A stretch of DNA of 34,245 bases. Source: Nitrospira sp. GTDB lineage: Bacteria > Nitrospirota > Nitrospiria > Nitrospirales > Nitrospiraceae. The notes beneath the pieces are model-generated. The model worked only from the letters and a program-made list of their open reading frames with translations. It was not told the DNA's origin and ran no database searches. Shown in pieces: positions 17,555-33,346 of this stretch. The stretch spans positions 1-34,245 of the forward strand of contig JANDJJ010000015.1 of the NCBI GenBank assembly GCA_024330945.1. Reading direction: 5' to 3'. The translations under genes were made by a program, and so were the position numbers. Position 1 is the first letter of the stretch. Every line of letters begins with the position of its first letter.

Positions 17555-19105
17555 GTGGCTAAACTCGCCGTCATCGACATCGGGACCAATTCCATCCACA
17601 TGGTGCTGGCCGAAATCCTGCCCGACGCCGGGTACAAAATCATCGACCGTTTCAAAGACGTCACCCGCCTGGGCGATGGAGCCTTCGCCGCAAGACGACT
17701 ATCCGACGAGGCGATGGCGCGGGCGTTGTCGATTCTCAAAACGCTCGTCACCCTTGCCCGCAACAAAGGATTCGACCGGATGGCGGCGGTCGCAACCAGC
17801 GCGGTGCGCGAGGCACGCAACGGCGGCGAGTTCGTCAGCATGGTCAAGGAACATACCGGATTGACCGTTCGCGTCATCAGCGGAACGGAAGAAGCGAGGC
17901 TGATTTATTTGGGAGTCAAGAACAGCATCGCGCTTCCGGAGAAGCCGGCGCTGATCGTCGACGTCGGAGGAGGCTCGGTGGAACTGATCGCGGGCAACCG
18001 GGAGAGAATGCTGCACGCCAAAAGCCTCAAATTGGGCGCCATCAGATTGGCGGATCAGTTCCTTTCAAAAACGCCCCCTCCTGCGCCCATGCTGCGCGTG
18101 CTCGAAGAGACGGTGACGAATCAGATCCGGGCGGCGATCGACACGTTTCCGACCAAACAATTCGATTGGCTGGTGGCGACCTCCGGTATGGCCGGCAATC
18201 TCGCCGAAGTGATTCACATCAAACAAACCGGCCGGCCGCTGCCTCAGCACAATCTTGCCACAGTCTCACTCAAAGATCTGCGATCGTTGGAAACGGAATT
18301 GGCACGGTCTTCGCTGAGAGCGCGATTGGCGATCCCGGGCCTGGACCCCAAACGCGCCGACACGCTGCTGCCGGCCGCCGTCGTGCTCCGATGCCTGATG
18401 GAACTGCTGGGCCTGAACGCAATGACGCTCTGCGACAAGGCCATCCGCGAAGGCGTGATTTACGATTTCATCGTCCGCCATCGTGAGGGGCTGGAAGCGG
18501 AGCGGGAAATCCCCGACGTACGCCGCCGAAGCGTGATGCGCCTGGTCCGGCGTTGTCGAGCGCCCGAGGTTCATTCGCTTCAAGTGGCGGCGCTGGCCCT
18601 TCGCCTCTTCGATCAAACGCGACCGTGGCATCGGCTCGGGCAACAGGAACGCGATTGGCTCGAGTACGCCGCCATGCTGCACGATATCGGCTATCTCATC
18701 AACGCGCGCCAACACCATAAGCACGCCTACTATTTGATCAGACACAGCGATCTGGAAGGATTTACCGCTTCTGAAATCGAGGTGATGGCCAACGTCGCCC
18801 GCTATCACCGCCGCGCTCTGCCCTCCATCAAGCATCAGGGATTCGAGCGCCTGTCCCCAGCCCTGCGCCGCGTGGTGAAGATTTTGTCCTCCTTGCTGCG
18901 CATCGCGGACGGACTCGATCGAACCCATTTCTCTGTTGTTCATACGTTGAATGTAAAGCTCGGAAAAACTACGTCGATTGAAGCCGCGATCTCGGGCGAC
19001 GCGGAAATGGAGCTTTGGGCGGCCAAGAACCGTTCCGACTTGTTCGAACAGGTCTTCCGTCGCACCGTCCGGTTTTCGGAAGTCCCGCAAGGAGTATCTC
19101 TCTGA
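17555..19105 (+). CDS. ppx: Exopolyphosphatase/pppGpp phosphatase (Ppx/GppA) with C-terminal HD domain
   Basis: 516 aa; GTG start, since no ATG lies close upstream. The ASKHA-fold phosphatase half (about 1-305) has VIDIGTNSIHMVLAE, AVATSAVREARN, SGTEEARLIYLGV, LIVDVGGGSVELIAG and KLGAIRL, all typical of Ppx/GppA. The C-terminal half (about 320-480) is an HD-type helical domain with EYAAMLHDIGYLI and a His-rich HHKHAYYLI segment, as in full-length Ppx/GppA. It releases phosphate from polyphosphate and/or removes the 5'-phosphate of pppGpp; the two activities cannot be told apart by eye. Its stop overlaps the next gene (TGATG), so expression is coupled to the first TMP-kinase-like gene. Confidence 0.92.
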   Translation: MAKLAVIDIGTNSIHMVLAEILPDAGYKIIDRFKDVTRLGDGAFAARRLSDEAMARALSILKTLVTLARNKGFDRMAAVATSAVREARNGGEFVSMVKEHTGLTVRVISGTEEARLIYLGVKNSIALPEKPALIVDVGGGSVELIAGNRERMLHAKSLKLGAIRLADQFLSKTPPPAPMLRVLEETVTNQIRAAIDTFPTKQFDWLVATSGMAGNLAEVIHIKQTGRPLPQHNLATVSLKDLRSLETELARSSLRARLAIPGLDPKRADTLLPAAVVLRCLMELLGLNAMTLCDKAIREGVIYDFIVRHREGLEAEREIPDVRRRSVMRLVRRCRAPEVHSLQVAALALRLFDQTRPWHRLGQQERDWLEYAAMLHDIGYLINARQHHKHAYYLIRHSDLEGFTASEIEVMANVARYHRRALPSIKHQGFERLSPALRRVVKILSSLLRIADGLDRTHFSVVHTLNVKLGKTTSIEAAISGDAEMELWAAKNRSDLFEQVFRRTVRFSEVPQGVSL

Positions 19106-19854
19106 TGACGGCGCAAGATCAGGTGAAATCGCCCCCCCACCCCTATCCGGGGAAACTCATCATCGTCGAGGGCATCGATGGGTCGGGGAAAAGCACGCAG
19201 TTGCTCCTCCTGCACAAGTGGCTCGAGGCGAAGGGCCACAAGGTGTTTTTCACCGAGTGGAATTCGTCGGATCTGGTCAAGGACACGACGAAGCGGGGCA
19301 AAAAGACGAAGAGCCTCACGCCGACGACGTTCAGCCTGCTCCATGCCGCGGATTTCGCGAGCCGGCTGTACCATCACATTCTCCCTCCGCTGAAAGCCGG
19401 CATGCTCGTCTTGGCGGACCGCTACATGTACACGGCGTTCGCACGCGACGTGGTCCGCGGCGTGTCAAGGGAATGGATCAGAAAACTCTACGCGTTCGCC
19501 ATCAAGCCCGACATGGCCTTTTATTACAACGTCCCGATCGAGGTGGCGATCTCCCGGCTCGTACACGGAACGCGCGGCCAGTTCAAATATTACGAAGCCG
19601 GCATGGATCTGAACCTCAGTCCGGACATCACGGAGAGCTTCAGATTGTTTCAATCGCGCATCCTGGCCGAGTACGACAAGATCGTCGATGAGTTCGGCCT
19701 GCTCACCATGGACGCGACCGAAGACATCGAAACGCAACAGGAGCGGATGAGAAAGCTAGTCGAAGACGCCCTGCGGGGCTATAAACCTAGACGAGGAACC
19801 TATGGGCGACGCACGTTATTTTGGCGACGGTTTGACGTACCTCGATCCGAGTGA
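19105..19854 (+). CDS. tmk: Thymidylate-kinase-like protein 1
   Basis: 249 aa, P-loop nucleoside-monophosphate kinase family. Walker A is GIDGSGKST (residues 23-31); the LADRYMYTAFARD segment carries the conserved DR[YH] of TMP kinases, and a GMDLNLSPDITESFRLFQ segment follows in the lid/base region. TMP kinases phosphorylate dTMP to dTDP; whether this copy does so is unproven, since it is longer than usual (about 210 aa) and paired with a paralog. The ATG shares its A with the ppx stop and AAGGAG lies upstream. The 3' end (residues about 233-249) runs over the start of the second copy by 53 nt and its last residues look unlike the family. Confidence 0.85.
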   Translation: MTAQDQVKSPPHPYPGKLIIVEGIDGSGKSTQLLLLHKWLEAKGHKVFFTEWNSSDLVKDTTKRGKKTKSLTPTTFSLLHAADFASRLYHHILPPLKAGMLVLADRYMYTAFARDVVRGVSREWIRKLYAFAIKPDMAFYYNVPIEVAISRLVHGTRGQFKYYEAGMDLNLSPDITESFRLFQSRILAEYDKIVDEFGLLTMDATEDIETQQERMRKLVEDALRGYKPRRGTYGRRTLFWRRFDVPRSE

Positions 19855-20524
19855 TCTGAAGGGGAAACTCATCGCCATCGAAGGGACGGACGGCGTCGGA
19901 CGATCGACGCACGTCGAGATGTTACAGGAATGGCTGGAGGTGCAGGGCTACGGCGTGGTGACGACCGGCTGGACCAGGTCGAACCTCATGTCCAAAACCA
20001 TCGAAGCAGCCAAGGCGGGCAACATCCTCGATCGCTGGTCCCTCAGCCTGCTCTATGCGACCGACTTCGCCGATCGCCTGGAGCATCAAATCATCCCGGC
20101 GCTGCGATCCGGCTTCGTCGTGCTGTCGGACCGATACATCTACACCGCCTTCGCGCGCGACGTCGTGCGGAGCGGAGATCGGAAATGGATTCGCGACGTC
20201 TTCGGATTTGCGCTGATTCCGGACCTCGTGTGCTACCTTCGCATCGACGTCGACACCCTCGCGCTGCGGGTGATCGAAACCACCGGCATGAACTACTGGG
20301 AGTCCGGTATGGATTTGAGACTCGGCGCCGATCTGTACGACAGTTTCAAAAAATACCAGTCGCTGATGATCGAAGAGTTCGACAAAATGGCGGAGGAGTT
20401 CGGCTTTAACGTCGTCGACGCCAGAAAGTCGCCCGAAGAGATCCAGGAAGAGCTGCGAAGCTACATCCTGCCCGTCTTGCGGAATTCCAAACGGACGACA
20501 ACCTTGGAACCCACCGGAGCCTAG
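19802..20524 (+). CDS. Thymidylate-kinase-like protein 2 (Walker A Lys replaced by Arg)
   Basis: 240 aa, clearly paralogous to the gene before it: GKLIAIEGTDGVGRST against GKLIIVEGIDGSGKST, LSDRYIYTAFARDVVR against LADRYMYTAFARDVVR, and GMDLRLGADLYDSFKKYQ against GMDLNLSPDITESFRLFQ. The Walker A Lys is Arg34 here, a change expected to weaken or abolish phosphoryl transfer, so this copy may be a regulatory or structural partner. GAGG precedes the ATG at 19802; that start lies within the upstream gene (53-nt overlap). A start inside the overlap (TTG at 19831) cannot be excluded. It is the last gene of the ppx operon, 20 bp from the convergent sixA. Confidence 0.83.
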   Translation: MGDARYFGDGLTYLDPSDLKGKLIAIEGTDGVGRSTHVEMLQEWLEVQGYGVVTTGWTRSNLMSKTIEAAKAGNILDRWSLSLLYATDFADRLEHQIIPALRSGFVVLSDRYIYTAFARDVVRSGDRKWIRDVFGFALIPDLVCYLRIDVDTLALRVIETTGMNYWESGMDLRLGADLYDSFKKYQSLMIEEFDKMAEEFGFNVVDARKSPEEIQEELRSYILPVLRNSKRTTTLEPTGA

Positions 20525-22189: not shown

Positions 22190-23059
22190 ATGCACCGTCA
22201 GCCGTTGCGACCGATCGGCATATTGCTTTGCATCGTCGGGGGTGGTCTTCTGGCCGCTCACTCGATCAATGCGTTCGTGGCCGACGCCTTACAGGTCGCC
22301 CCCCTCGCGACCGCCGTTTCCCAAACGCCCAATGGGTCAGAAATCGGGATGACGGTGTCCTATTCCCCGACACGTTACGCTGACGACGTCCGATCCAGCG
22401 GCTTGTTCGCTTTACCCTCCAAACAGGAGCCGCAGAACCACGATGACGGATCACCCACCGCGCCGGTTCGAGCTTCATTGGGGGCTGCCGCCAAAATAAG
22501 CCTGATCGGAGTCGTGATGGGAGACCGAGAAGGAATCTTCGCCATCGTGGAGGAACGGGCCTCCAAGAGCCAGACGCTGTACCGGCTTCATGATTATATT
22601 CCCGACATCGGCGAGGTTTCAGACATTCGGCGGAACGGCATCGTGGTCCGGCAGGGAAATCTGGAAGAGCTGGTCGAATTGACCGCCTCTGAACAACCGT
22701 CCATTCAGGATGCCGGCGCGATCTCGACCTCCGCGGCCATGATGAAAAAGGTCATCGATCGACGGGAAGTGGATCACGCCATGAGCGATTTGCCCAAGCT
22801 CCTGACCCAGGCCCGCGCCGTTCCCCACATGGTCAACGGCGCCATCAACGGGTTTCGGATCGACTATATGGCTCCCGCCAGTTTTTATGAGAAGATCGGC
22901 ATTCGGACGGGCGACATTCTCCAGCGGGTCAACGGTGTCGAGATTCGCGACCCGGGCACGGTGCTGAACTTGCTTCAGCAGTTGAAAAATGAAAACGTCG
23001 TCAAGCTGGATATCGTCCGCAATAATCGACGCGCGACGGTCACATACGAACTGCGCTGA
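22190..23059 (+). CDS. gspC: Type II secretion protein GspC
   Basis: 289-aa inner-membrane component that links the inner-membrane platform to the secretin. A short cytoplasmic N-terminus and one TM helix (about 10-30, IGILLCIVGGGLLAAHSINAF) are followed by a linker and the homology region (about 95-160: ISLIGVVMGDREGIFAIVEERASKSQTLYRLHD..., VVRQGNLEELVEL). A C-terminal PDZ-like domain follows (about 198-289, GFRIDYMAPASFYEKIGIRTGDILQRVNGVEIRDP). This is the full GspC architecture. The homology region normally contacts GspD, which makes the missing gspD next door notable. The ATG has only a weak ribosome-binding site. Confidence 0.9.
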   Translation: MHRQPLRPIGILLCIVGGGLLAAHSINAFVADALQVAPLATAVSQTPNGSEIGMTVSYSPTRYADDVRSSGLFALPSKQEPQNHDDGSPTAPVRASLGAAAKISLIGVVMGDREGIFAIVEERASKSQTLYRLHDYIPDIGEVSDIRRNGIVVRQGNLEELVELTASEQPSIQDAGAISTSAAMMKKVIDRREVDHAMSDLPKLLTQARAVPHMVNGAINGFRIDYMAPASFYEKIGIRTGDILQRVNGVEIRDPGTVLNLLQQLKNENVVKLDIVRNNRRATVTYELR

Positions 23060-23097
23060 CTCCCCTCCGGTCTGTCACCATTACAAGGAGCAAGACG

Positions 23098-23205
23098 ATG
23101 CGGGAAAAGATCGGTCAGCGCCCTGCGGCGTGCTCCCGTTCCACAACGGTCTGGGCCATCTCCGGCATCTCGCAGACACCGCGCGTCCCTCGCGCGATCG
23201 AATAA
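23098..23205 (+). pseudogene. 35-codon reading frame at the gspD position (possible deletion remnant)
   Basis: Between gspC and gspE, where gspD normally sits, AAGGAG is placed 7 nt before an ATG at 23098. The frame stops after 35 codons at 23205, 27 bp before gspE. The start MREKIGQRPAACSRSTTVWA is basic, but the peptide has no secretin domain and no convincing signal peptide. A strong initiation site on such a short frame is what remains if most of a coding sequence is lost. Alternatives are an uncharacterised small protein or a leader peptide. No recognisable GspD sequence is left in any frame, so the link to gspD rests on position only. Confidence 0.4.
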
Positions 23206-23232
23206 GGCGGCGTAATCTCGACCGGCGCTGAC

Positions 23233-24954
23233 ATGGAATCACATTACGGCAGACCTCTTTTGGGGCGAATACTCGGAGAACGGTTCAAACTCTCGAGCGC
23301 CAAACTCGAAGAAGCGTTGGCCCACCAACAAGAAAAGGGAGGGCGGTTGGGCGAAGTTTTGCTGAACTTGCGCGCGCTGCGCGAAGAAGAATTGCTGGAA
23401 GGCCTCGCCATCCAGTTCGGGCTTTCGTGGATGCCCCAATTGGAAACCGTGGCCGTGGATCACAACCTGATCAAAAAAGTGCCCATCACGTTTTGTCGGC
23501 GGTACCGCGTGCTCCCCCTTCGGCAGGAAGAAGACGCCGTTCTCGTCGCTTCGACCGATCCGCTGGAAACCGTGGCGCTCGACGACCTTCGTCTGCTGCT
23601 CGGCAAGCCCGTCAAACCCGTGTTGACCACCGGCGGCGCCTTGCTCGCTCGACTGAATCGCGCGTATGACGAAACCGCCGATCCGGCCGGCGCCGAGCAA
23701 GTCATGGAGGACATCGCCGCCAGCGAGAGCCTCGATCAAATCGCCCACCAGCTCGACGAGCCACAGGATCTGCTGGACGCCACGGACGAAGCACCGATCA
23801 TTCGGCTGGTCAATTCGGTCTTGTTTCAGGCCGTCCGGCAGCGGGCCAGCGACATCCACTTCGAATCGTTCGAGCGGGGCCTGGTGATCCGATACCGCAT
23901 CGACGGCGTTCTTTATCCGGTCCTGACGCCGCCCAAACGCCTGCAAGCCAGCATCATCGCGCGCATCAAGATCATGGCCGGCCTCAACATCGCCGAGAAA
24001 CGCCTCCCACAGGACGGCCGGTTCGCGATTCGGACGGCCGGCAAGGATGTGGATCTGCGCGTGTCGGTGTTGCCCACGTCCCACGGCGAACGGGTCGTGC
24101 TGCGGTTGTTGGAAAAAGAAACCCGCCTGTTGAACCTGTCCGAGATGGGGTTCTCCGGAGAGCGCCTGTCCACGATCCACCAATTGATCCAGCTCGCGCA
24201 CGGAATGATCCTCGTCACGGGCCCGACCGGCAGCGGCAAGACCACGACCCTGTACGCCGCGTTGAGCCACATCAATTCGCCGGACAAGAACATCATCACG
24301 ATCGAAGACCCGGTGGAATACCAATTGCTCGGCATCGGCCAGATGCAGGTCAACCCCAAGATCAACCTGACGTTCGCCGCAGGATTGCGCTCGATTCTTC
24401 GACAGGACCCCGACGTCATCATGATCGGAGAAATCCGGGATCGCGAAACAGCCGAAATCGCGATTCACGCCTCCCTGACCGGGCACCTGGTGTTCTCCAC
24501 GCTGCATACCAACGACGCGGCCAGCGCCGCCACCCGCCTCATCGACATGGGCATCGAGCCGTTTCTGGTCGCCTCGTCCGTGGTGGCCGTCCTGGCACAG
24601 CGGTTGATCCGCAAAATCTGCCCGGACTGTAAGACCCCGTACAAGCCGAGCGCCGAGGAACTGAGCCGCCTCGACCTTCCCCCGAGATCGAACGTGACTC
24701 TGTATCGGGGAGCCGGCTGCCAAGCCTGTTCGCAGACCGGCTATCGCGGGCGAACGGGCATCTTCGAACTGATGGTGCTGGATGACGAAATCAGGCGCCT
24801 GATCGGGAGCAAGGCGGACGCGACGGCCATCAAGCAGGCTTCGATCGCGAAGGGCATGACGACGCTCAAGCAGGACGGCACCGAGCGCGTCTTGCAAGGC
24901 CAGACCTCGCTCGAAGAAGTGATGCGGATCACCCAGCAGGAAGTCGAAATCTAG
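23233..24954 (+). CDS. gspE: Type II secretion ATPase GspE
   Basis: 573-aa cytoplasmic hexameric ATPase that powers pseudopilus assembly. The N-terminal T2SSE-N domain spans about 1-150 (LLGRILGERFKLSSAKLEEALAHQQEKGGRLGEVLL). The core has the N2 segment (RASDIHFESFERGLVIRYRIDG), Walker A GPTGSGKTT (330-338), Asp box (ITIEDPVEYQ), Walker B region (ILRQDPDVIMIGEIRDRETAEIAI) and His box (STLHTNDA). The zinc tetra-Cys motif is intact: CPDC and CQAC flank about 40 residues, as in GspE and PilB. The length is a little above the usual 500-570. It starts 27 bp after the short frame that occupies the gspD position, and ends 2 bp before gspF. Confidence 0.96.
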   Translation: MESHYGRPLLGRILGERFKLSSAKLEEALAHQQEKGGRLGEVLLNLRALREEELLEGLAIQFGLSWMPQLETVAVDHNLIKKVPITFCRRYRVLPLRQEEDAVLVASTDPLETVALDDLRLLLGKPVKPVLTTGGALLARLNRAYDETADPAGAEQVMEDIAASESLDQIAHQLDEPQDLLDATDEAPIIRLVNSVLFQAVRQRASDIHFESFERGLVIRYRIDGVLYPVLTPPKRLQASIIARIKIMAGLNIAEKRLPQDGRFAIRTAGKDVDLRVSVLPTSHGERVVLRLLEKETRLLNLSEMGFSGERLSTIHQLIQLAHGMILVTGPTGSGKTTTLYAALSHINSPDKNIITIEDPVEYQLLGIGQMQVNPKINLTFAAGLRSILRQDPDVIMIGEIRDRETAEIAIHASLTGHLVFSTLHTNDAASAATRLIDMGIEPFLVASSVVAVLAQRLIRKICPDCKTPYKPSAEELSRLDLPPRSNVTLYRGAGCQACSQTGYRGRTGIFELMVLDDEIRRLIGSKADATAIKQASIAKGMTTLKQDGTERVLQGQTSLEEVMRITQQEVEI

Positions 24955-24956
24955 CC

Positions 24957-26192
24957 ATGCCTGTCTATCAATACCGCGGCTATCGCACCGACGGCGGCTC
25001 CGCGACCGGCATCATCGACGCCGAGAACCCCAAGGTCGCCCGCCTCAAACTTCGAAAAGACGGGATCTTTCCCACCGAGGTCGCCGAACAAACCCGCTCG
25101 TCGATCGGGCGCTCGGCAGAGACAAAAACCGACACAACCTCTCGTTCCGGCCGCTCCGCCTCCTTGACCTCCGGCGAGCTGGCGCTGATCACGAGACAAT
25201 TCGCCACTCTGCTGGTCGCCGGTCTGCCGTTGGTCGACGCGTTGGGCGTCATTGTGGACCAATCCGACAAAAAACCCGTCAAGGCGCTGTTCGCGGATAT
25301 TCGCGAGCAGATTCGAGCCGGTCGATCGCTGAGCGACGTCCTGGAAGCGCACGAAAAAGACTTCTCCCGCATCTACGTGCACATGGTCAGAGCCGGGGAA
25401 GCCAGCGGAGCGCTCGATCAGATTCTGTTCCGCTTGGCCGAATTTTTGGAAAAACAGTTGGCTCTCAAACATAAAGTGACCAACGCTGTTCTCTATCCGG
25501 CCTTGATGCTCGTCGTCGGCATCGCCGTCCTGTTTTTCCTGATGACCTTCGTCGTACCCAAGATCACCGCCGTCTTTGCGGACATGAACCACGCCTTGCC
25601 CTGGCCGACCATCGCGCTGATGGCGGTGAGCGGGTTTTTCTCTGACTATTGGCCGGTGTTGGTCGGCCTCGTCGCCGGCGGCGCGATCCTCGTTCAAAAA
25701 TCCCTGCAAACCGAACGAGGCCGGACGATGGCGGACCGACTGATGCTGCGGTTGCCGCTGATCGGGGAAGTCGCGCGGATGGTGTCGATCTCCAGATTGG
25801 CCGGCACGCTGGCGACGATGCTGGCCAGCGGCGTTCAGCTTCTGGACGCGTTGGACGTCTCCAAGCGCGTCATGAACAATCGCATCTTGGAAGAGGCCGT
25901 GGAAAGCGCCCGGCAAAACATCCGTGAAGGCGAAACCATCGCCGACCCGTTGAAGCGGAGCGGCGAATTTCCGGCGCTGGTCACCCACATGATCGCCGTC
26001 GGAGAGCGCAGCGGCGAGATGGAGGAAATGCTCGGACGCCTCAGTCAGATTTACGACGGCGAAGTGGAGCGAGTGATCACCCGATTGACGTCCCTTATGG
26101 AGCCGGTCATGATTTTGGCCATGGGCTTGATCGTGTTTTTCATCGTGGTGGCCATTCTCCTGCCCATTTTCGAAATGGGGCAGATGGTATGA
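24957..26192 (+). CDS. gspF: Type II secretion inner-membrane protein GspF
   Basis: 411-aa polytopic platform protein. The N-terminus MPVYQYRGYRTDGGSATGIIDAENPKVARLKLRKDGIFPTEV is typical of GspF. Two repeated cytoplasmic helical domains (about 70-170 and 275-375) each carry the family signature: LITRQFATLLVAGLPLVDAL and ISRLAGTLATMLASGVQLLDAL. There are three main TM regions (about 178-200, 225-245 and 380-405, ending LPIFEMGQMV). It couples GspE to the pseudopilus and GspL/M. It overlaps gspG by four bases (ATGA). Confidence 0.96.
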   Translation: MPVYQYRGYRTDGGSATGIIDAENPKVARLKLRKDGIFPTEVAEQTRSSIGRSAETKTDTTSRSGRSASLTSGELALITRQFATLLVAGLPLVDALGVIVDQSDKKPVKALFADIREQIRAGRSLSDVLEAHEKDFSRIYVHMVRAGEASGALDQILFRLAEFLEKQLALKHKVTNAVLYPALMLVVGIAVLFFLMTFVVPKITAVFADMNHALPWPTIALMAVSGFFSDYWPVLVGLVAGGAILVQKSLQTERGRTMADRLMLRLPLIGEVARMVSISRLAGTLATMLASGVQLLDALDVSKRVMNNRILEEAVESARQNIREGETIADPLKRSGEFPALVTHMIAVGERSGEMEEMLGRLSQIYDGEVERVITRLTSLMEPVMILAMGLIVFFIVVAILLPIFEMGQMV

Positions 26193-26695
26193 CACCGACG
26201 GAGGAGGAGGAGGAGGAGGAAACCGTGCAGACGCTCAGACGGACGACGGGATGGATGCGACGCCGAGCCGGCGAACGTGGATTCACTTTTATCGAGATCA
26301 TGGTCGTGGTGGCTATTTTGGCCATTCTCGCCGCGTTGGTCGTCCCCCGCATCATGGGACGGACGGACGAAGCCAAACGCACGGCGGCCAAGGTGCAAAT
26401 CCGAAACATCGAGGGGGCGCTCCAACTGTACAAATTGGACAACGGCGTCTATCCCTCGACGGAGCAGGGACTCAGGGCACTGGTGGAAAAACCGACCGTC
26501 GGCGTGATTCCGAAAAAGTGGAAACAGGGCGGCTACCTGCCGAAGCTTCCGGAAGATCCGTGGGGCAATCCGTTTAAGTACCAGAGCCCGAGCCCGCGGG
26601 GCGAATATGAAATCGTGTCCCTCGGCGTCGACGGAGAAGTCGGAGGGGAAGGCGCCAACGCGGACATCACCAACTGGAATTTGGACAAGGACTAA
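26189..26695 (+). CDS. gspG: Major pseudopilin GspG
   Basis: 168 aa from the ATG, which overlaps the gspF stop. The prepilin leader ends GERG, and the mature protein starts FTFIEIMVVVAILAILAALVVPRIMGR with the conserved Glu at +5. The globular domain has the GspG hallmarks IEGALQLYKLDNGVYPSTEQGL, PWGNPF and the calcium-site end GGEGANADITNWNLDKD. The annotated N-terminus includes six GAG codons plus a GAA (26201-26221), giving EEEEEEE. A GTG at 26225 just after this run gives a normal, shorter leader, with the GAG run serving as Shine-Dalgarno; I consider this start at least as likely. Confidence 0.94.
   Translation: MTPTEEEEEEETVQTLRRTTGWMRRRAGERGFTFIEIMVVVAILAILAALVVPRIMGRTDEAKRTAAKVQIRNIEGALQLYKLDNGVYPSTEQGLRALVEKPTVGVIPKKWKQGGYLPKLPEDPWGNPFKYQSPSPRGEYEIVSLGVDGEVGGEGANADITNWNLDKD
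26201..26218 (+). repeat. (GAG)6 microsatellite at the gspG start
   Basis: Six perfect GAG triplets, followed by GAA, lie immediately before a GTG codon (26225) in frame with gspG. The tract contains overlapping GGAGG cores complementary to the 16S rRNA tail. It can be read as a poly-Glu leader segment or as a multi-register ribosome-binding site. Confidence 0.85.
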
Positions 26696-26707: not shown

Positions 26708-27319
26708 ATGAAGGGCGCGTCGTCCGTCATACGACCAGGCTCCGCCGTCGGGCGATCGAGCTCCCCGCTCCACGGCGCACCGCCGGGGTTTACGATTATG
26801 GAGATGCTCATCGTCTTGTTTCTGGTAGGCACGGTGATGGCCTTGACGGTTCCACGGATCGTCCTCGGCGACGACTTGAGCGCGACGGGGCGGAAGTTCA
26901 TCGGCACGCTTCGCGCGTTGCAGCGAATGGCCGAGATTGGACAGAAGCCTGTGAAGCTCTACCTGGATCTTGACCGTGGCACCTATTGGGCGATGGTAGT
27001 GGACGGGCGGGAAGAGCGGCGTCCTCTCGACGCCGCCTGGGCTTCTCCCCGATCGTTTCCTGAGGCCGTTCGAGTGGCGGAAGTCTCCGTGAGAAACGTC
27101 TTGCGCACCTACGGGCAGGTGGAGCTGCTGTTCTTCCCGAACGGCCGCCTCGATCCGGCGACGATTTATTTTACGGACGGCGGCAACAACCTGTTGACAC
27201 TGAAGATCGACCATCTGACCGGCAACGTCACAACGTTCGACCGACGACTCGATCCGCCCGTCCCTCGACCGATTCCGGATCGTGTCAAAACCTTATTGCA
27301 GGCCGCTTCGCCCCGATGA
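26708..27319 (+). CDS. gspH: Minor pseudopilin GspH
   Basis: 203 aa. A 27-residue positively charged leader ends PPG, followed by FTIMEMLIVLFLVGTVMALTVPRIVL with Glu at +5, the standard prepilin cleavage and assembly signal. The rest fits the GspH/FimT domain: SATGRKFIGTLRALQRMAEIGQKPVKLYLDLDRGTYW..., VELLFFPNGRLDPATIYFTDG. It is a tip-complex pseudopilin. It starts 12 bp after gspG and overlaps gspI by four bases (ATGA). Confidence 0.9.
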   Translation: MKGASSVIRPGSAVGRSSSPLHGAPPGFTIMEMLIVLFLVGTVMALTVPRIVLGDDLSATGRKFIGTLRALQRMAEIGQKPVKLYLDLDRGTYWAMVVDGREERRPLDAAWASPRSFPEAVRVAEVSVRNVLRTYGQVELLFFPNGRLDPATIYFTDGGNNLLTLKIDHLTGNVTTFDRRLDPPVPRPIPDRVKTLLQAASPR

Positions 27320-27756
27320 CGGCGCCGCACGACATGCCGACTATCTTTTCTCGCGAAAGCGGATTCACCCTGCTGGAAGTGATGCTGGCCGTCGCGCTGC
27401 TGGCAATCGCGCTGCCCGTCCTCCTCGGCCTCCGCAACTTCGACATCGACCTGCACCATCGCGCGCGCGAGTTGACCACGGCGACGCTCCTGGCGCAGGA
27501 AAAACTGCTGGAAACCGAATTGGCCGGCCTGTACCCCATCGGGGAGACCACAGGAGAATTCCGAACGCCGCCGCTCGGCACCCTCATGGTCGCCCACACG
27601 TCGGACCGGCCGGCGGGGTATCGATGGAAACAGACGATCGCGCCGACGCCGCTTGAGTTGATTCGGGAAGTTCGGATCACGATCTCCTGGCCGCGAGGAA
27701 AGACCGAAGAAACGGTCGAGGTCAGCACCTATGTGTTCGCCGGCAACGCGTTCTAA
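27316..27756 (+). CDS. gspI: Minor pseudopilin GspI
   Basis: 146 aa. The leader ends SRESG and the mature N-terminus is FTLLEVMLAVALLAIALPVLLGL with Glu at +5. The soluble part (ARELTTATLLAQEKLLETELAG...) fits the GspI/PilV class with its conserved helix followed by beta strands. It is a part of the GspK-I-J tip complex. The start overlaps gspH (ATGA) and the 3' end overlaps gspJ by 26 nt. Confidence 0.9.
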   Translation: MTAPHDMPTIFSRESGFTLLEVMLAVALLAIALPVLLGLRNFDIDLHHRARELTTATLLAQEKLLETELAGLYPIGETTGEFRTPPLGTLMVAHTSDRPAGYRWKQTIAPTPLELIREVRITISWPRGKTEETVEVSTYVFAGNAF

Positions 27757-28348
27757 ATCACAAGACGGCTTTACCCTGATCGAGATCCTGATCGCGATCG
27801 CCTTGCTCGGCATTATCGCCTCGATGGTGTTCGGCTCGCTCATGACGACGAATCGCGCCGTCGAAGTGGGGCGAGACGCTTCCTTTCGAGAGCAGACGAT
27901 CAGAAGGGTGCTCCGCGTCATGGCCGAAGATCTGTCCTTGAGCAGGCAAGACGGCGCCTTGCCGTGGGTCGGGGCGAACGGTTGGCAGGAGGGACAACCG
28001 GCCGACATCGTCGCGTTTCTCGCGATGAACGACGGCTCAAGCGGGCCGGCGGCGCGAGAGACCGAATTGATCCGCGTGGTCTACACGCGCGAGGGCGACC
28101 GCCTGTTGCGATTCGCGAAAAAGAATTTGTACGGCCTCACCGACGAATCGATCGATCGCGTGGAATTGGCGAACCACGTCCGCTCGTTCAATCTTCGCTA
28201 TTTCGATGCGCAAAGCCGCGTGTGGCTCGACGAGTGGGGGGGGCTCAACAAATTGCCCAAGGCGGTGTTGATCGAACTCACCGTTCAGCCGCCCGATACG
28301 GACCCCTGGACCGTCCGCGAATGGGTCACGCTGGAAGCGGCATCATGA
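27731..28348 (+). CDS. gspJ: Minor pseudopilin GspJ
   Basis: 205 aa. The leader MCSPATRSKSQDG precedes FTLIEILIAIALLGIIASMVF with Glu at +5. The following region (IRRVLRVMAEDLSLSRQDG, ...ETELIRVVYTREGDRLLRF, VRSFNLRYFDAQSRVW...) matches the GspJ globular domain. It starts 26 nt inside gspI and ends in a four-base overlap with gspN (ATGA), so the pseudopilin genes form a tightly coupled block. Confidence 0.92.
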   Translation: MCSPATRSKSQDGFTLIEILIAIALLGIIASMVFGSLMTTNRAVEVGRDASFREQTIRRVLRVMAEDLSLSRQDGALPWVGANGWQEGQPADIVAFLAMNDGSSGPAARETELIRVVYTREGDRLLRFAKKNLYGLTDESIDRVELANHVRSFNLRYFDAQSRVWLDEWGGLNKLPKAVLIELTVQPPDTDPWTVREWVTLEAAS

Positions 28349-29229
28349 TCGGAAACTGGCTCGACGCTCGGAAGGAACGCCTCGCGTGGATTGCGGTCGG
28401 ACTCGGCACGTTCGGGTTCGGCCTGATCTCGACCTTTCCCTACGACGCATTGCAGACAAGACTCGTGTCAGAACTGAACCGGGCGACCGGGATCACCATC
28501 CGGGCGGAGGAATGGTCGGTGGCATGGCCGATGGGAATCGAATGGCAGCGGGTTTCCTTGTCTTTTCCCGAATGGGATCCAATCGAATTGGCCTTGCTCA
28601 AGGCGAACGTCGGTCTGCTTCAAGCGTTGGGCGGCGCCCTCGTCCTCGACGTCAGCGCCAGATCCGACGCCGCCTCACCCGTTGCCGGAGTGACCCGCGT
28701 CAGTTTGTCGGCGTCCTCGCTGACCGCACAGGGGCCGTGGTCGGCGACGGGGCGGCTTCAGCGCGTCGATTTGTCTCGGTTGTTCGGCCGGTACATCAGT
28801 CGCGGCGTGATCGACGGCGAATTTGCATACCGTGCCGAATCAAACCATCCCGTCTCTCAACAGGTCGGCGGAGAAGGAACGTGGAAGGCCGACGCGACGG
28901 ACGTCGCCATCGATCGCATCCCCCTGGGCAACGGGCGAACCCTGTCGCTGACGTTCACCAAGATCTCCGGCGGCGTGGAGTGTCGGGAGGGCGCGTGCAG
29001 AGTGACGGCCCTCTCCGGCGAGGGAGTCGACGGATCGTTCACGGGAGAGGGAACCATCACGATCCAGAGCCCGATGCGGAACAGCCGACTGGCCTTGACC
29101 GTGACCCTTGTACCGGGAACCGGATTCGCCGCGAAAGCCCCCGCTCTGGGGTTGCCTCCACTTCCGGTCGGCTCGCCGATCACCGTCAAGATCATCGGCC
29201 CATTGGCACAACCCAGGATCGCGTTGTAA
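28345..29229 (+). CDS. gspN: Type II secretion protein GspN
   Basis: 294 aa. There is one N-terminal TM anchor (about 13-33, AWIAVGLGTFGFGLISTFPY) and then a periplasmic, beta-rich domain with repeating weak AsmA-like strands (GITIRAEEWSVAWPMGIEWQRVSLSFPEW, GEGTWKADATDVAIDRIPLGNGRTLSLTF, GSFTGEGTITIQSP). This is typical of GspN, a non-core T2SS component of uncertain role. Two Cys (VECREGACRV) may form a disulphide. The ATG at 28345 overlaps the gspJ stop; the frame is open further upstream but that part lies within gspJ. GspN is usually at the operon end; here it lies between gspJ and gspL. Confidence 0.85.
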   Translation: MIGNWLDARKERLAWIAVGLGTFGFGLISTFPYDALQTRLVSELNRATGITIRAEEWSVAWPMGIEWQRVSLSFPEWDPIELALLKANVGLLQALGGALVLDVSARSDAASPVAGVTRVSLSASSLTAQGPWSATGRLQRVDLSRLFGRYISRGVIDGEFAYRAESNHPVSQQVGGEGTWKADATDVAIDRIPLGNGRTLSLTFTKISGGVECREGACRVTALSGEGVDGSFTGEGTITIQSPMRNSRLALTVTLVPGTGFAAKAPALGLPPLPVGSPITVKIIGPLAQPRIAL

Positions 29230-29326: not shown

Positions 29327-30910
29327 ATGGCGATCGTGACCGAATGTGTCGGACTTGACGTCGGGCAGACGGGATTCAAAGCCGTCCGTTTCCGCCGGCG
29401 ATTGAGCGGACGCGAGTCCATCGATTATTTTCATCGGCCGTTGCCGTTCATCCGCCCCGAAGATTTGGACCCCGCGCGGCGGGTTCAGGCTCTGCGAGGG
29501 TTTCTCTGGCACCATGGCCTCTACGCCACCGATCGCCTGGTGACCGCCATTCCCTGCCACGACTTGTTCGTTCGCACGCTCTCGTTTCCGTTCAAAGACG
29601 CGGCCAAACTGACCCAAATTGTTCCGTTCGAGGTGGAAAACCTGATACCCATGCCGCTCGAAGACCTGGCGATCGGCAGCGTCGTCTTGCCGCCCGGTCG
29701 CGTGTCCGACGGATCGCCTCGAGAGCAGAAGGGGTCGGAAGTGCTCGTCACCGCCGCTCCGAAGGACAAGGTGGCCGACCATCTCCGATTTTTGGCCCAA
29801 GCCGACATTGAGCCGTCGGCCGTCAACGTCGACGCGCTGGCCCTCTTTTCCGTCATTCAGCATCTGCGCGGCGAGCACCGGGACGTCCCCGAAGATCTGG
29901 TCGCCATCGACATCGGTGCGTCGAAGACGACCCTCTGTCTGATTCATGAAGGACGACCGGTGGTGCTTCGAACCATTCTGTGGGGCGGCAACCACCTGAC
30001 CCGCGCCGTGGCCGCACGGGAGCGATGCGGGTTTGCCGAGGCCGAACGCCTTAAGCGCGGCATGGCGGTCGAGCAGGTGGACGCGTGGCTCGACCCGTTG
30101 GTTCGGGAACTCTACGTCACGATTCAAGCCTACGAAGGATCGCAACGCAGCCGATTGACCCACTGCTGGGTCTCGGGAGGAGGGTCCAAGCTCCGAGAAA
30201 TGGGAGGATTCGTGGCCCGCCAATTGGGCCTTCATCCCGTCGGCCCCAGGCAAGGATTCGGCCCGGACAGCCCGCGGGCCTTCTCGATCGCATTCGGGCT
30301 GGCCGTCCATCCGAAGATCGTCAAACCCCGTTGGCGATTCACGCCTTCGACGGACGGCCTGGCCCTCGATTTCAAAAGCGTCTCCGGCGAAGCAACATCC
30401 AAAAGCAAGGCTTCCAAGTCCGACCTTCGCTTGGCCCTTGTCGCGGGGCTGATCATCGGACTCCTTGCCGTCGCGGACCTGACGATTCATTTCGTCCTGC
30501 AACGGAATCGAGTCTCCGATCTGAAGGCGGCGTTACAATCGCGCTACGAGCAGGTGTTCGGCTCGACCGCCGCGCCAGGAGACGAACTCGATCAGGCGCG
30601 CTATCGAATCGCGTCGATAGACAAAACCCTCGCCGTCATCGACGGTTCCCGGCAAAAAGTTCTTCCGATACTGTCGGCATTCGTCAAAGAGCTGCCGCCT
30701 GGCACTCCGGTAAAAGTCCGTGAACTGACGGTCGACGCCGGAACGATTCTTTTGGAAGGAGAGACGTCGTCCTTCGATGCGGTGGACAAAATCAAACACA
30801 TCTTCGCGGCGAGCGCCCGTTTCGAGGACGTCTCCGTCACGGAAACCCGCGTGGGCGCGGCCCCGAACCAGGTGGTGTTCCGCATGACCGTCACGGTGCG
30901 TCGGCCATGA
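29327..30910 (+). CDS. gspL: Type II secretion protein GspL (PilM-like ATPase fold + membrane/periplasmic domain)
   Basis: 527 aa, longer than the usual 380-430 of GspL. The cytoplasmic half (about 1-320) is an actin-like (ASKHA) domain: VGLDVGQTGFKAVRF (phosphate 1), LVAIDIGASKTTLCLIHEG (phosphate 2) and CWVSGGGSKLREMGGFVARQLG (adenosine). One TM helix follows a linker (about 367-388, LALVAGLIIGLLAVADLTIHF), then a coiled coil and a ferredoxin-like periplasmic domain (PGTPVKVRELTVDAGTILLEGETSSFDAVDKIKHIF). The layout is that of a PilM-PilN fusion. It recruits GspE to the membrane. A 97-bp gap separates it from gspN; it overlaps gspM by four bases. Confidence 0.88.
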   Translation: MAIVTECVGLDVGQTGFKAVRFRRRLSGRESIDYFHRPLPFIRPEDLDPARRVQALRGFLWHHGLYATDRLVTAIPCHDLFVRTLSFPFKDAAKLTQIVPFEVENLIPMPLEDLAIGSVVLPPGRVSDGSPREQKGSEVLVTAAPKDKVADHLRFLAQADIEPSAVNVDALALFSVIQHLRGEHRDVPEDLVAIDIGASKTTLCLIHEGRPVVLRTILWGGNHLTRAVAARERCGFAEAERLKRGMAVEQVDAWLDPLVRELYVTIQAYEGSQRSRLTHCWVSGGGSKLREMGGFVARQLGLHPVGPRQGFGPDSPRAFSIAFGLAVHPKIVKPRWRFTPSTDGLALDFKSVSGEATSKSKASKSDLRLALVAGLIIGLLAVADLTIHFVLQRNRVSDLKAALQSRYEQVFGSTAAPGDELDQARYRIASIDKTLAVIDGSRQKVLPILSAFVKELPPGTPVKVRELTVDAGTILLEGETSSFDAVDKIKHIFAASARFEDVSVTETRVGAAPNQVVFRMTVTVRRP

Positions 30911-31458
30911 TGCAGAATCTCCAAGAACGCTGGCGGCAACTTTCCCCGCGCGAGCGAACGATCGTGCTCGTCGGCGGAATCGTCGTCGGCCTCGGCCTGC
31001 TGTTCGCGCTCGTCGTCGACCCCCTGCTCGACTCGTACGACCGGCTGATCCGCCAGGAGGCGCGCAAGCGCAAAGACCTCCAGGAATTGGCCGTCTTGAG
31101 CCAGGAGTACTCGATCAAACGAGAGCGTCTCTCGCAAACCGAGCAACGTCTGCCTGAGGCGGGCGGCCACTTTTCTCTGCTGGCCTTCATGGAAGAAGCC
31201 GCCGGCTCGGCCCGCGTGCGAGACCGGATCGCCGGCATGCAGCCGCAGGTTCAAACGCTCTCCTCGGGATATGAAGAAACGGCGGTCGACCTCCGGCTCG
31301 ACGGAGTGCAGTTGCCGGAGTTGCTGCATCTGCTCGTGACGATCGACCAAGCGCCGTATGATCTGCAAGTCCGTCACTTGAAGATCCGCCCGAAATTCGA
31401 CAACCCCGTCAATCTGGAAGCGACGATCCGCGTGTTGAGTTATGCGAAAAGCCGATGA
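30907..31458 (+). CDS. gspM: Type II secretion protein GspM
   Basis: 183 aa. A short basic cytoplasmic stretch (QERWRQLSPRERTIV) is followed by one TM helix (about 20-41, LVGGIVVGLGLLFALVVDPLL), a coiled coil (about 45-85) and a C-terminal ferredoxin-like domain (VDLRLDGVQLPELLHLLVTIDQAPYDLQVRHLKIRP). The ERTIV and LL...VVDPLL segments are typical of GspM/PilO-type partners of GspL. The ATG overlaps the gspL stop; the 3' end overlaps gspK by 17 nt. Confidence 0.88.
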   Translation: MMQNLQERWRQLSPRERTIVLVGGIVVGLGLLFALVVDPLLDSYDRLIRQEARKRKDLQELAVLSQEYSIKRERLSQTEQRLPEAGGHFSLLAFMEEAAGSARVRDRIAGMQPQVQTLSSGYEETAVDLRLDGVQLPELLHLLVTIDQAPYDLQVRHLKIRPKFDNPVNLEATIRVLSYAKSR

Positions 31459-32395
31459 ACGAGGAATCGCGCTGCTGCTTTCCCTTCTTGTGCTGGCGCT
31501 CCTGACGGCGATCGTTCTCGAATTCGACGCGGAAGCCCGGCGCGAATACCGCGAGGCGGCTGCGTTCCGCGATCATGTGAAGTCCGGCGCCTTGATGCGC
31601 GCGGCCGTTCAGGCGGCAAGTGCGGCTCTTCAACAAGACTTTTTGCGAGACAAGCGAAGCGGCGAACGGTTCGACGGCCCGCTGGACCTGTGGGCGATCC
31701 CGATCAAAAATTACGCGATCGGCGACGGATTGTTGAGCGCAAAAATTCAGGACGAGCGTGGGAAACTGAATCTCAACGATCTTGTGGCTTCCGCCGGCGA
31801 TCCGATCCAATCCAAAACCCGTATCGACCGAATCCGTCGGCTCTTCGAGCTGCTCCAGATCAATCCCGATCTGGTCGACGCCTTGATTGATTGGCTTGAC
31901 CAAGACGATGCTCCCCGCCCCGCCGGCGCGGAAAGCCTGCATTATCAATCGTTGCGCCCCGCCTACCGGGCGGCCAACAGCCCGCTCCAGGCACTGAGCG
32001 ATCTTCGGCTCATCAAGGGCTTCACACCGGAGATCATCGATCGATTGTCGCGATACGTCACCGTGCATCCGATCGAGGGAGGTGCGCCGGTGAACATCAA
32101 CACCGCCGAGCCTTTTGTCATCCAGGCTCTCGATCCCGACATCACATCGGCGATGGCGACGGAAATCATCCAGGGACGGCCCTATAAAACCAAAGAGGAG
32201 TTGAACCGCATCGGCAGTTTCGTCGATATCGGCGCCAAGCTGCGCGCCTCAGGATCCGTCTACGACGTCAAGAGCGATCATTTTTCCGCGCAGCTCACCA
32301 TCACGGTCAACGAATCGGTCAAGAACGCCTTCGTCGTTCTGCACCGAGAACCGAACAAGGGCCGTTGTACCGTGAAATATCTGCGGGTGTTCTAA
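31442..32395 (+). CDS. gspK: Minor pseudopilin GspK
   Basis: 317 aa, the large tip pseudopilin. The leader MRKADERG precedes IALLLSLLVLALLTAIVLEFD; position +5 is not Glu, which is normal for GspK. The family features follow: AVQAASAALQQD, LWAIPIKNYAIGDGLLSAKIQDERGKLNLNDLV, DALIDWLDQDDAPRPAGAES and a helix-hairpin-helix-like region (GGAPVNINTAEPFVIQALDPDITSAMATEIIQGRPYKTKEEL). In most operons gspK lies between gspJ and gspL; here it is last, after gspM, so the order is rearranged. It ends 51 bp from a convergent gene. Confidence 0.93.
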   Translation: MRKADERGIALLLSLLVLALLTAIVLEFDAEARREYREAAAFRDHVKSGALMRAAVQAASAALQQDFLRDKRSGERFDGPLDLWAIPIKNYAIGDGLLSAKIQDERGKLNLNDLVASAGDPIQSKTRIDRIRRLFELLQINPDLVDALIDWLDQDDAPRPAGAESLHYQSLRPAYRAANSPLQALSDLRLIKGFTPEIIDRLSRYVTVHPIEGGAPVNINTAEPFVIQALDPDITSAMATEIIQGRPYKTKEELNRIGSFVDIGAKLRASGSVYDVKSDHFSAQLTITVNESVKNAFVVLHREPNKGRCTVKYLRVF

Positions 32396-32446: not shown

Positions 32447-33346
32447 TCAGCCGAGCGGCACGGTAAACATCGCTTCATTGCCACGCTCGTTATAGGAGAG
32501 ATCAGGGAACAGTGAGCGCACCAACAACAATCCCCGCCCGCTGCCGTCCATCAATCCAACCCCATCCGGTTTCCGCTCCAACATCGTTCGCCAATTGAAC
32601 CCTTTTCCCTGGTCACGAATGCGATAATACAGCCGCCGTGCCTGTCCATCGTAGGAGACTTCCACAATGACACGCCGATCTCTGAGCACCGGCCTGGCCG
32701 CTCGCTCGTCGAGCAAGGCATCGTAGCATCCTTTGGCCACCGCCTGTTTTTTCTCGTCATGGGAAATCTCAAGGTTTCCATGTTCGACGGCATTGACCAG
32801 TAATTCTTGAAGCGCCCCACGCAGCCCCATTTGCATGGTGTCAGGCATCATCTTGGCCGTCTCGCCCACAAGCCACAAGACTGCTTCATCGATAGAGGAA
32901 GGGTCATTCGTCAGAACAAACCGTTGATCAAACCGCAGCACGCTCGAAACAGGAGTGGTCGATCCAACTGCCCCACACCGAACGCGATCGAGCACATGGG
33001 CGAATTCTTCCATGACAATCGGCTTTCGAAGGCACTGCGTCGCTCCAGCCCGAATGGCCTTGGCGATCGTTTGCTCAGACCACTTATCAGAGACGACAAC
33101 GATTGGGCACGTTCGGCCGAGACCTCTTAAGTCTTGAAGCAACGACAGCCCTGCCTCGCCGCACTGAGACAAATCGGTGATCACGACGTCGGGGGACCGT
33201 TGTTGGCACAACAGGACCGCATGAGATGGATCAGTGGTCGCGATCACAGTCAGTCCAGCCTGCTCGGCGTCACAAGCCAGCTCCGTTCGCAGATCGCAGG
33301 ATGGATCCACCAGCAAGACGACACCGGAATGCCGTTCCCCTTTCAT
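32447..33346 (-). CDS. Response-regulator receiver fused to RsbW-like ATPase domain
   Basis: 299 aa. The N-terminal receiver domain (about 8-125) has the phosphoacceptor Asp58 (VVITDLS), the conserved switch Ser86 (VVVSDK) and Lys108 (LRKPI). Its acidic pocket is reduced: VDPS replaces the usual DD, leaving only Asp14. The C-terminal part (about 155-299) is a HATPase_c domain of the anti-sigma/RsbW type: ELLVNAVEHGN (N box), IRDQGKGFNW (G1) and DGSGRGLLLVRSLF (G2). A receiver joined directly to such an ATPase, without a dimerisation/His domain, suggests phosphorylation-controlled partner switching or serine kinase activity. It overlaps the upstream hpt gene by four bases (ATGA). Confidence 0.88.
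   Translation of the reverse strand: MKGERHSGVVLLVDPSCDLRTELACDAEQAGLTVIATTDPSHAVLLCQQRSPDVVITDLSQCGEAGLSLLQDLRGLGRTCPIVVVSDKWSEQTIAKAIRAGATQCLRKPIVMEEFAHVLDRVRCGAVGSTTPVSSVLRFDQRFVLTNDPSSIDEAVLWLVGETAKMMPDTMQMGLRGALQELLVNAVEHGNLEISHDEKKQAVAKGCYDALLDERAARPVLRDRRVIVEVSYDGQARRLYYRIRDQGKGFNWRTMLERKPDGVGLMDGSGRGLLLVRSLFPDLSYNERGNEAMFTVPLG

Follow-up and report, generated by a model that had tools for sequence, protein, structure and literature searches.

A type II secretion operon of Nitrospira and its predicted secretin, encoded at a separate locus

The gsp operon carried by a 34,245-nucleotide stretch of Nitrospira DNA (the window) has no gspD between gspC and gspE. It very probably belongs to an ordinary Nitrospira type II secretion system (T2SS), whose secretin gene left the operon before the sampled Nitrospira lineages separated. 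The gspD gene has a locus of its own, where a PilZ gene comes next on the same strand and sucD is usually close by. The initial annotation had proposed that gspD was deleted with its initiation site left behind, that it was moved elsewhere, or that about 2 kb were lost in the assembly. The second proposal is borne out by an intact GspD on another contig and by the same split across the genus. What is real is the gap, an old and fairly ordinary one; gspD itself is not lost.

The operon and its gspC-gspE junction

The operon lies on the forward strand in the order gspC-E-F-G-H-I-J-N-L-M-K and ends at position 32395. It starts with gspC (22190–23059, 289 residues), encoding a GspC homology region (PF11356, 27.9 bits for a cutoff of 27) and a C-terminal PDZ domain. 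Beyond a 173-bp spacer without secretin (23060–23232) lies gspE (23233–24954), which encodes a 573-residue ATPase with an MshEN N-terminal domain. GspE scores 713.7 bits against TIGR02533 (type_II_gspE, cutoff 630) and displays an MshE-type c-di-GMP motif (38.8 bits, cutoff 38). There follow gspF (24957–26192), the major pseudopilin gene gspG (26189–26695), a gspH-like minor pseudopilin gene (26708–27319), gspI (27316–27756), gspJ (27731–28348), gspN (28342–29229, the start being approximate; TIGR04411, 99 bits, cutoff 50), a gspL or pilM-like gene (29327–30910), gspM (30907–31458) and gspK (31442–32395). The operon was initially described as otherwise full, which agrees with the recognition of C, E, F, G, I, J, N, L, M and K, and of H as a weak match below the cutoff; GspI is just under its Pfam cutoff.

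With these reservations for GspH and GspI, the operon supplies the GspE, GspF, GspG to GspK, GspL and GspM that define a T2SS, together with a GspC that has its homology region. The same genome contains a prepilin peptidase (PF01478, on contig C195) and a 509-residue GspD (on contig C41). Grouping of all genes in one locus, a usual but non-defining trait, is not observed, as gspD is on another contig.

Several neighbouring or related genes were noted. A tandem overlapping pair of thymidylate-kinase-family genes (19015–20524) is kept in relatives. Downstream of gspK, a response-regulator/HATPase gene (32447–33346) diverges unusually fast, with 62–70% identity among relatives whose gsp genes are 85–99% identical. 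A gspC paralogue, away from any gspE, occurs on contig C21 of the window's genome (locus L062, 5646–6569) and at loci L076, L078 and L079. Over the homology region and PDZ domain, its identity is 40–44% in L062, L076 and L078, and 33–37%, in two pieces, in L079. In L062, L076 and L078 it adjoins genes for a 599–637-residue protein and a long protein judged by eye to be filamentous-haemagglutinin-like, and ExbB/ExbD-like genes are nearby in L076 and L078.

The junction was found as initially annotated: the gspC stop codon ends at 23059, the gspE ATG is at 23233, and the 173 bp between them contain a frame of 35 codons plus TAA (23098–23205, forward strand), with AAGGAG (23085–23090) 7 nt ahead of its ATG at 23098. 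The absence of gspD from the gap was likewise confirmed, since tblastn with the genome's own GspD gave no match in the spacer of the window, nor in those of relatives.

The reading of this frame as a genuine small gene, or as what remains of the gspD start, is very improbable. In its favour are the AAGGAG motif and the nearest relative, locus L124, where the start, stop and length are retained, with GAGGAG in place of AAGGAG. The motif AAGGAG(4-9)ATG occurs six times in the window, both strands counted. The 12 differences from L124 are spread evenly over codon positions and yield a dN of 0.11 and a dS of 0.16 (ratio of about 0.72), whereas gspE compared between the same two loci has a dN of 0.007 and a dS of 0.22 (ratio of 0.03). 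No purifying selection on the frame is thus shown in its only conserved copy, and the frame was not recognisable in L128, L129, L130, L119 or L113. Its length is not strongly unusual: when the spacer was shuffled with its dinucleotides preserved, 6.1% of the shuffled sequences had an ATG frame of at least 35 codons, or 12.7% when GTG and TTG starts were counted. The peptide, compared by eye, is unlike the N-terminus of GspD, and the spacer has no GspD match. A deletion of gspD leaving its initiation site is accordingly unsupported. The 35-codon frame is best read as spacer and not as a gspD remnant.

Folding of the spacer gave no signal of RNA structure (z-scores of −0.36 and +1.38). Of 53 distinct Nitrospira spacers, 29 by manual count have a conserved sigma-70-like element, CCTTGCCAG...GAGTAT, ahead of gspE, which suggests a separate, putative gspE promoter. 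The element is absent from the window and its closest kin, which have spacers of 148–173 bp, so that gspE here may depend on transcription initiated ahead of gspC.

The secretin on contig C41

The window comes from a MAG of 2.52 Mb in 205 contigs (G000), 95% complete. A search for the secretin family in this genome, of the kind that the initial annotation advised, returned a single match, an intact 509-codon frame on contig C41. Its product comprises a GspD-type N0 domain, one Secretin_N domain and a Secretin domain, the composition of the GspD family. Among NCBIfam models GspD ranks first with 341 bits, ahead of PilQ (166) and type III (130); the score of 341.4 bits against the curated equivalog TIGR02517 is 10 bits under the cutoff of 351.35, although this remains by far the best model. 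Among solved structures, type II GspDs are the closest. The protein aligns to the N0, the last N-domain and the secretin domain of 5wln, and seems to lack about two of the N-domains usually present. The operon-linked GspD frames of the sister family are similarly short (527–543 residues), and shortness is therefore not tied to relocation. On C41, the PilZ gene is next to gspD and sucD is near. Contigs C41 and C64 both fit the same clade, from a putative common cell of origin.

The secretin could instead serve another machine, such as a type IV pilus, leaving the T2SS without a dedicated pore or sharing one. This is very improbable. In its favour, the secretin is unlinked to the gsp operon, and the assembly yielded no PilQ even though pilMNOP are present. 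However, the pilMNOP contig stops within 141 bp past the pilP-like frame, at the place expected for pilQ, and of the seven nearest relatives that were tested, six have a separate PilQ, so that PilQ of this genome is probably just unassembled. Moreover, the C41 protein has the GspD-type N0 and groups with operon-linked GspD, and GspD and GspE are jointly absent from two near-complete genomes. A GspD common to the T2SS and the type IV pilus, considered because only one secretin was found, was discarded for the same reason, the contig ending at the expected start of pilQ. The C41 GspD is presumably the partner of the operon in the window. Had the loss been real, according to the initial annotation, the machine would have to use a secretin encoded elsewhere or a non-canonical outlet; the former is what C41 offers, and the latter is not needed.

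Distribution and origin of the split

In a manual count of loci, 66 Nitrospira genomes, that of the window among them, have gspC and gspE in succession with no secretin between the two. The spacers measure 148–461 bp in 65 of them and 1829 bp in G069, where the gap holds two other frames and no gspD. A GspD orthologue is present in 71 of the 79 genomes of the genus. The eight others are six incomplete MAGs (54–87%) and two genomes that are 99% complete (G070 and G071), in which the GspE orthologue is missing as well. In genomes with both genes on one contig, the distance between gspD and gspE is about 304 kb (G021), 0.25 Mb (G064), 0.78 Mb (G059) or 0.86 Mb (G090). The notion that the nearest relatives keep GspD without the operon, raised by four genomes with no gspE match (G080, G082, G008 and G075), was rejected for two of them, as G080 and G008 have the operon tail on contigs that end inside the operon. 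No literature on the placement of gspD in Nitrospira was found in a search mostly outside subscription journals.

Genome G025 has a second, divergent gsp system, in which a gspC-like gene adjoins gspD and gspE is about 5 kb away, with unrelated frames between the two (L075, contig C37, 5756–10604). The gspD match of this second system has an internal TGA.

An assembly collapse or a loss of about 2 kb at a junction really containing gspD, as the fragmentation of the MAG might suggest, is refuted to near certainty by independent assemblies. The same junction, at 93% identity, lies on a 585-kb contig (JANDJI010000002.1) of the nine-contig genome G083, the gspD of which is on a different, 797-kb contig, and single-contig genomes also lack gspD there.

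Two peculiarities of the assemblies were observed. The ends of contigs C10 and C21 of the window's genome (L063 and L062) share a 373-bp overlap, 95% identical, that points to a duplicate in the MAG or to strain variation. Locus L238, on contig C2 of G079, carries gspK-RR-Hpt-PP2C 99–100% identical to the window, and G079 also has its own diverged copy on C113; cross-binning of contigs is probable.

The initial annotation also recommended comparing the junction with genomes having a complete gspC-D-E. Two genomes of the sister family, G037 and G043, keep gspD there, in the order gspC-gspD-gspE-F-G, whereas Nitrospira does not. In a tree, the sister-family GspD joins those of Nitrospira and is separate from PilQ and the other secretins; support for this grouping is moderate (87/87), and the branches are long. 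A single relocation of gspD before the sampled Nitrospira diverged is the simplest inference.

The PilZ gene comes after the relocated gspD, on the same strand and no more than about 360 bp away, at every scanned orthologue locus of the genus with enough sequence; the one exception was a contig ending 18 bp past gspD. No PilZ neighbour was found at the second gspD of G025 or at the sister-family operon loci. The sucD gene was near gspD in ten loci read, that of the window's genome included, and was not seen near it in G021, G024 and G029.

Predicted operation and known systems

The homology region of GspC binds the N0 domain of GspD, and both are present in the genome of the window. A GspD produced at the distant locus would build the outer-membrane pore, docking through N0 onto the GspC homology region. 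The gspD locus and the gsp operon would be expressed together, and the machine is predicted to work, a T2SS by definition secreting folded periplasmic proteins. The conserved gspD-pilZ unit, with the MshEN domain and c-di-GMP-type motif of GspE, could mean that the pore and the motor are both under cyclic-di-GMP control, a possibility regarded as unlikely. The pair is a testable lead on the regulation of secretion in Nitrospira nitrifiers, and the best lead when taken together with the MshE-type motif of GspE. Apart from it, the case is one of ordinary gene relocation. The absence of gspD from a T2SS operon does not by itself mean that the operon is broken, and the Nitrospira T2SS would be overlooked or wrongly scored by searches that require a single locus.

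Among surveyed T2SSs, 96.5% are in one locus (PMC4793230), and that of Legionella pneumophila is spread over five loci (PMC6617341, PMC4793230). As in Nitrospira, the genes of the Legionella Lsp system, including the secretin gene, are not in one operon (PMC6617341). In Legionella, however, the entire system is dispersed, with lspD and lspE as a pair, whereas in Nitrospira only gspD left an otherwise full operon and is paired with a PilZ gene. The canonical single-locus T2SS of G037 and G043 has the same gene set and order after gspE as the window, and its GspD is 44% identical and similarly short. It differs in the position of gspD, which is between gspC and gspE there and relocated in Nitrospira, and in that a homologue of the PilZ gene was not found nearby.
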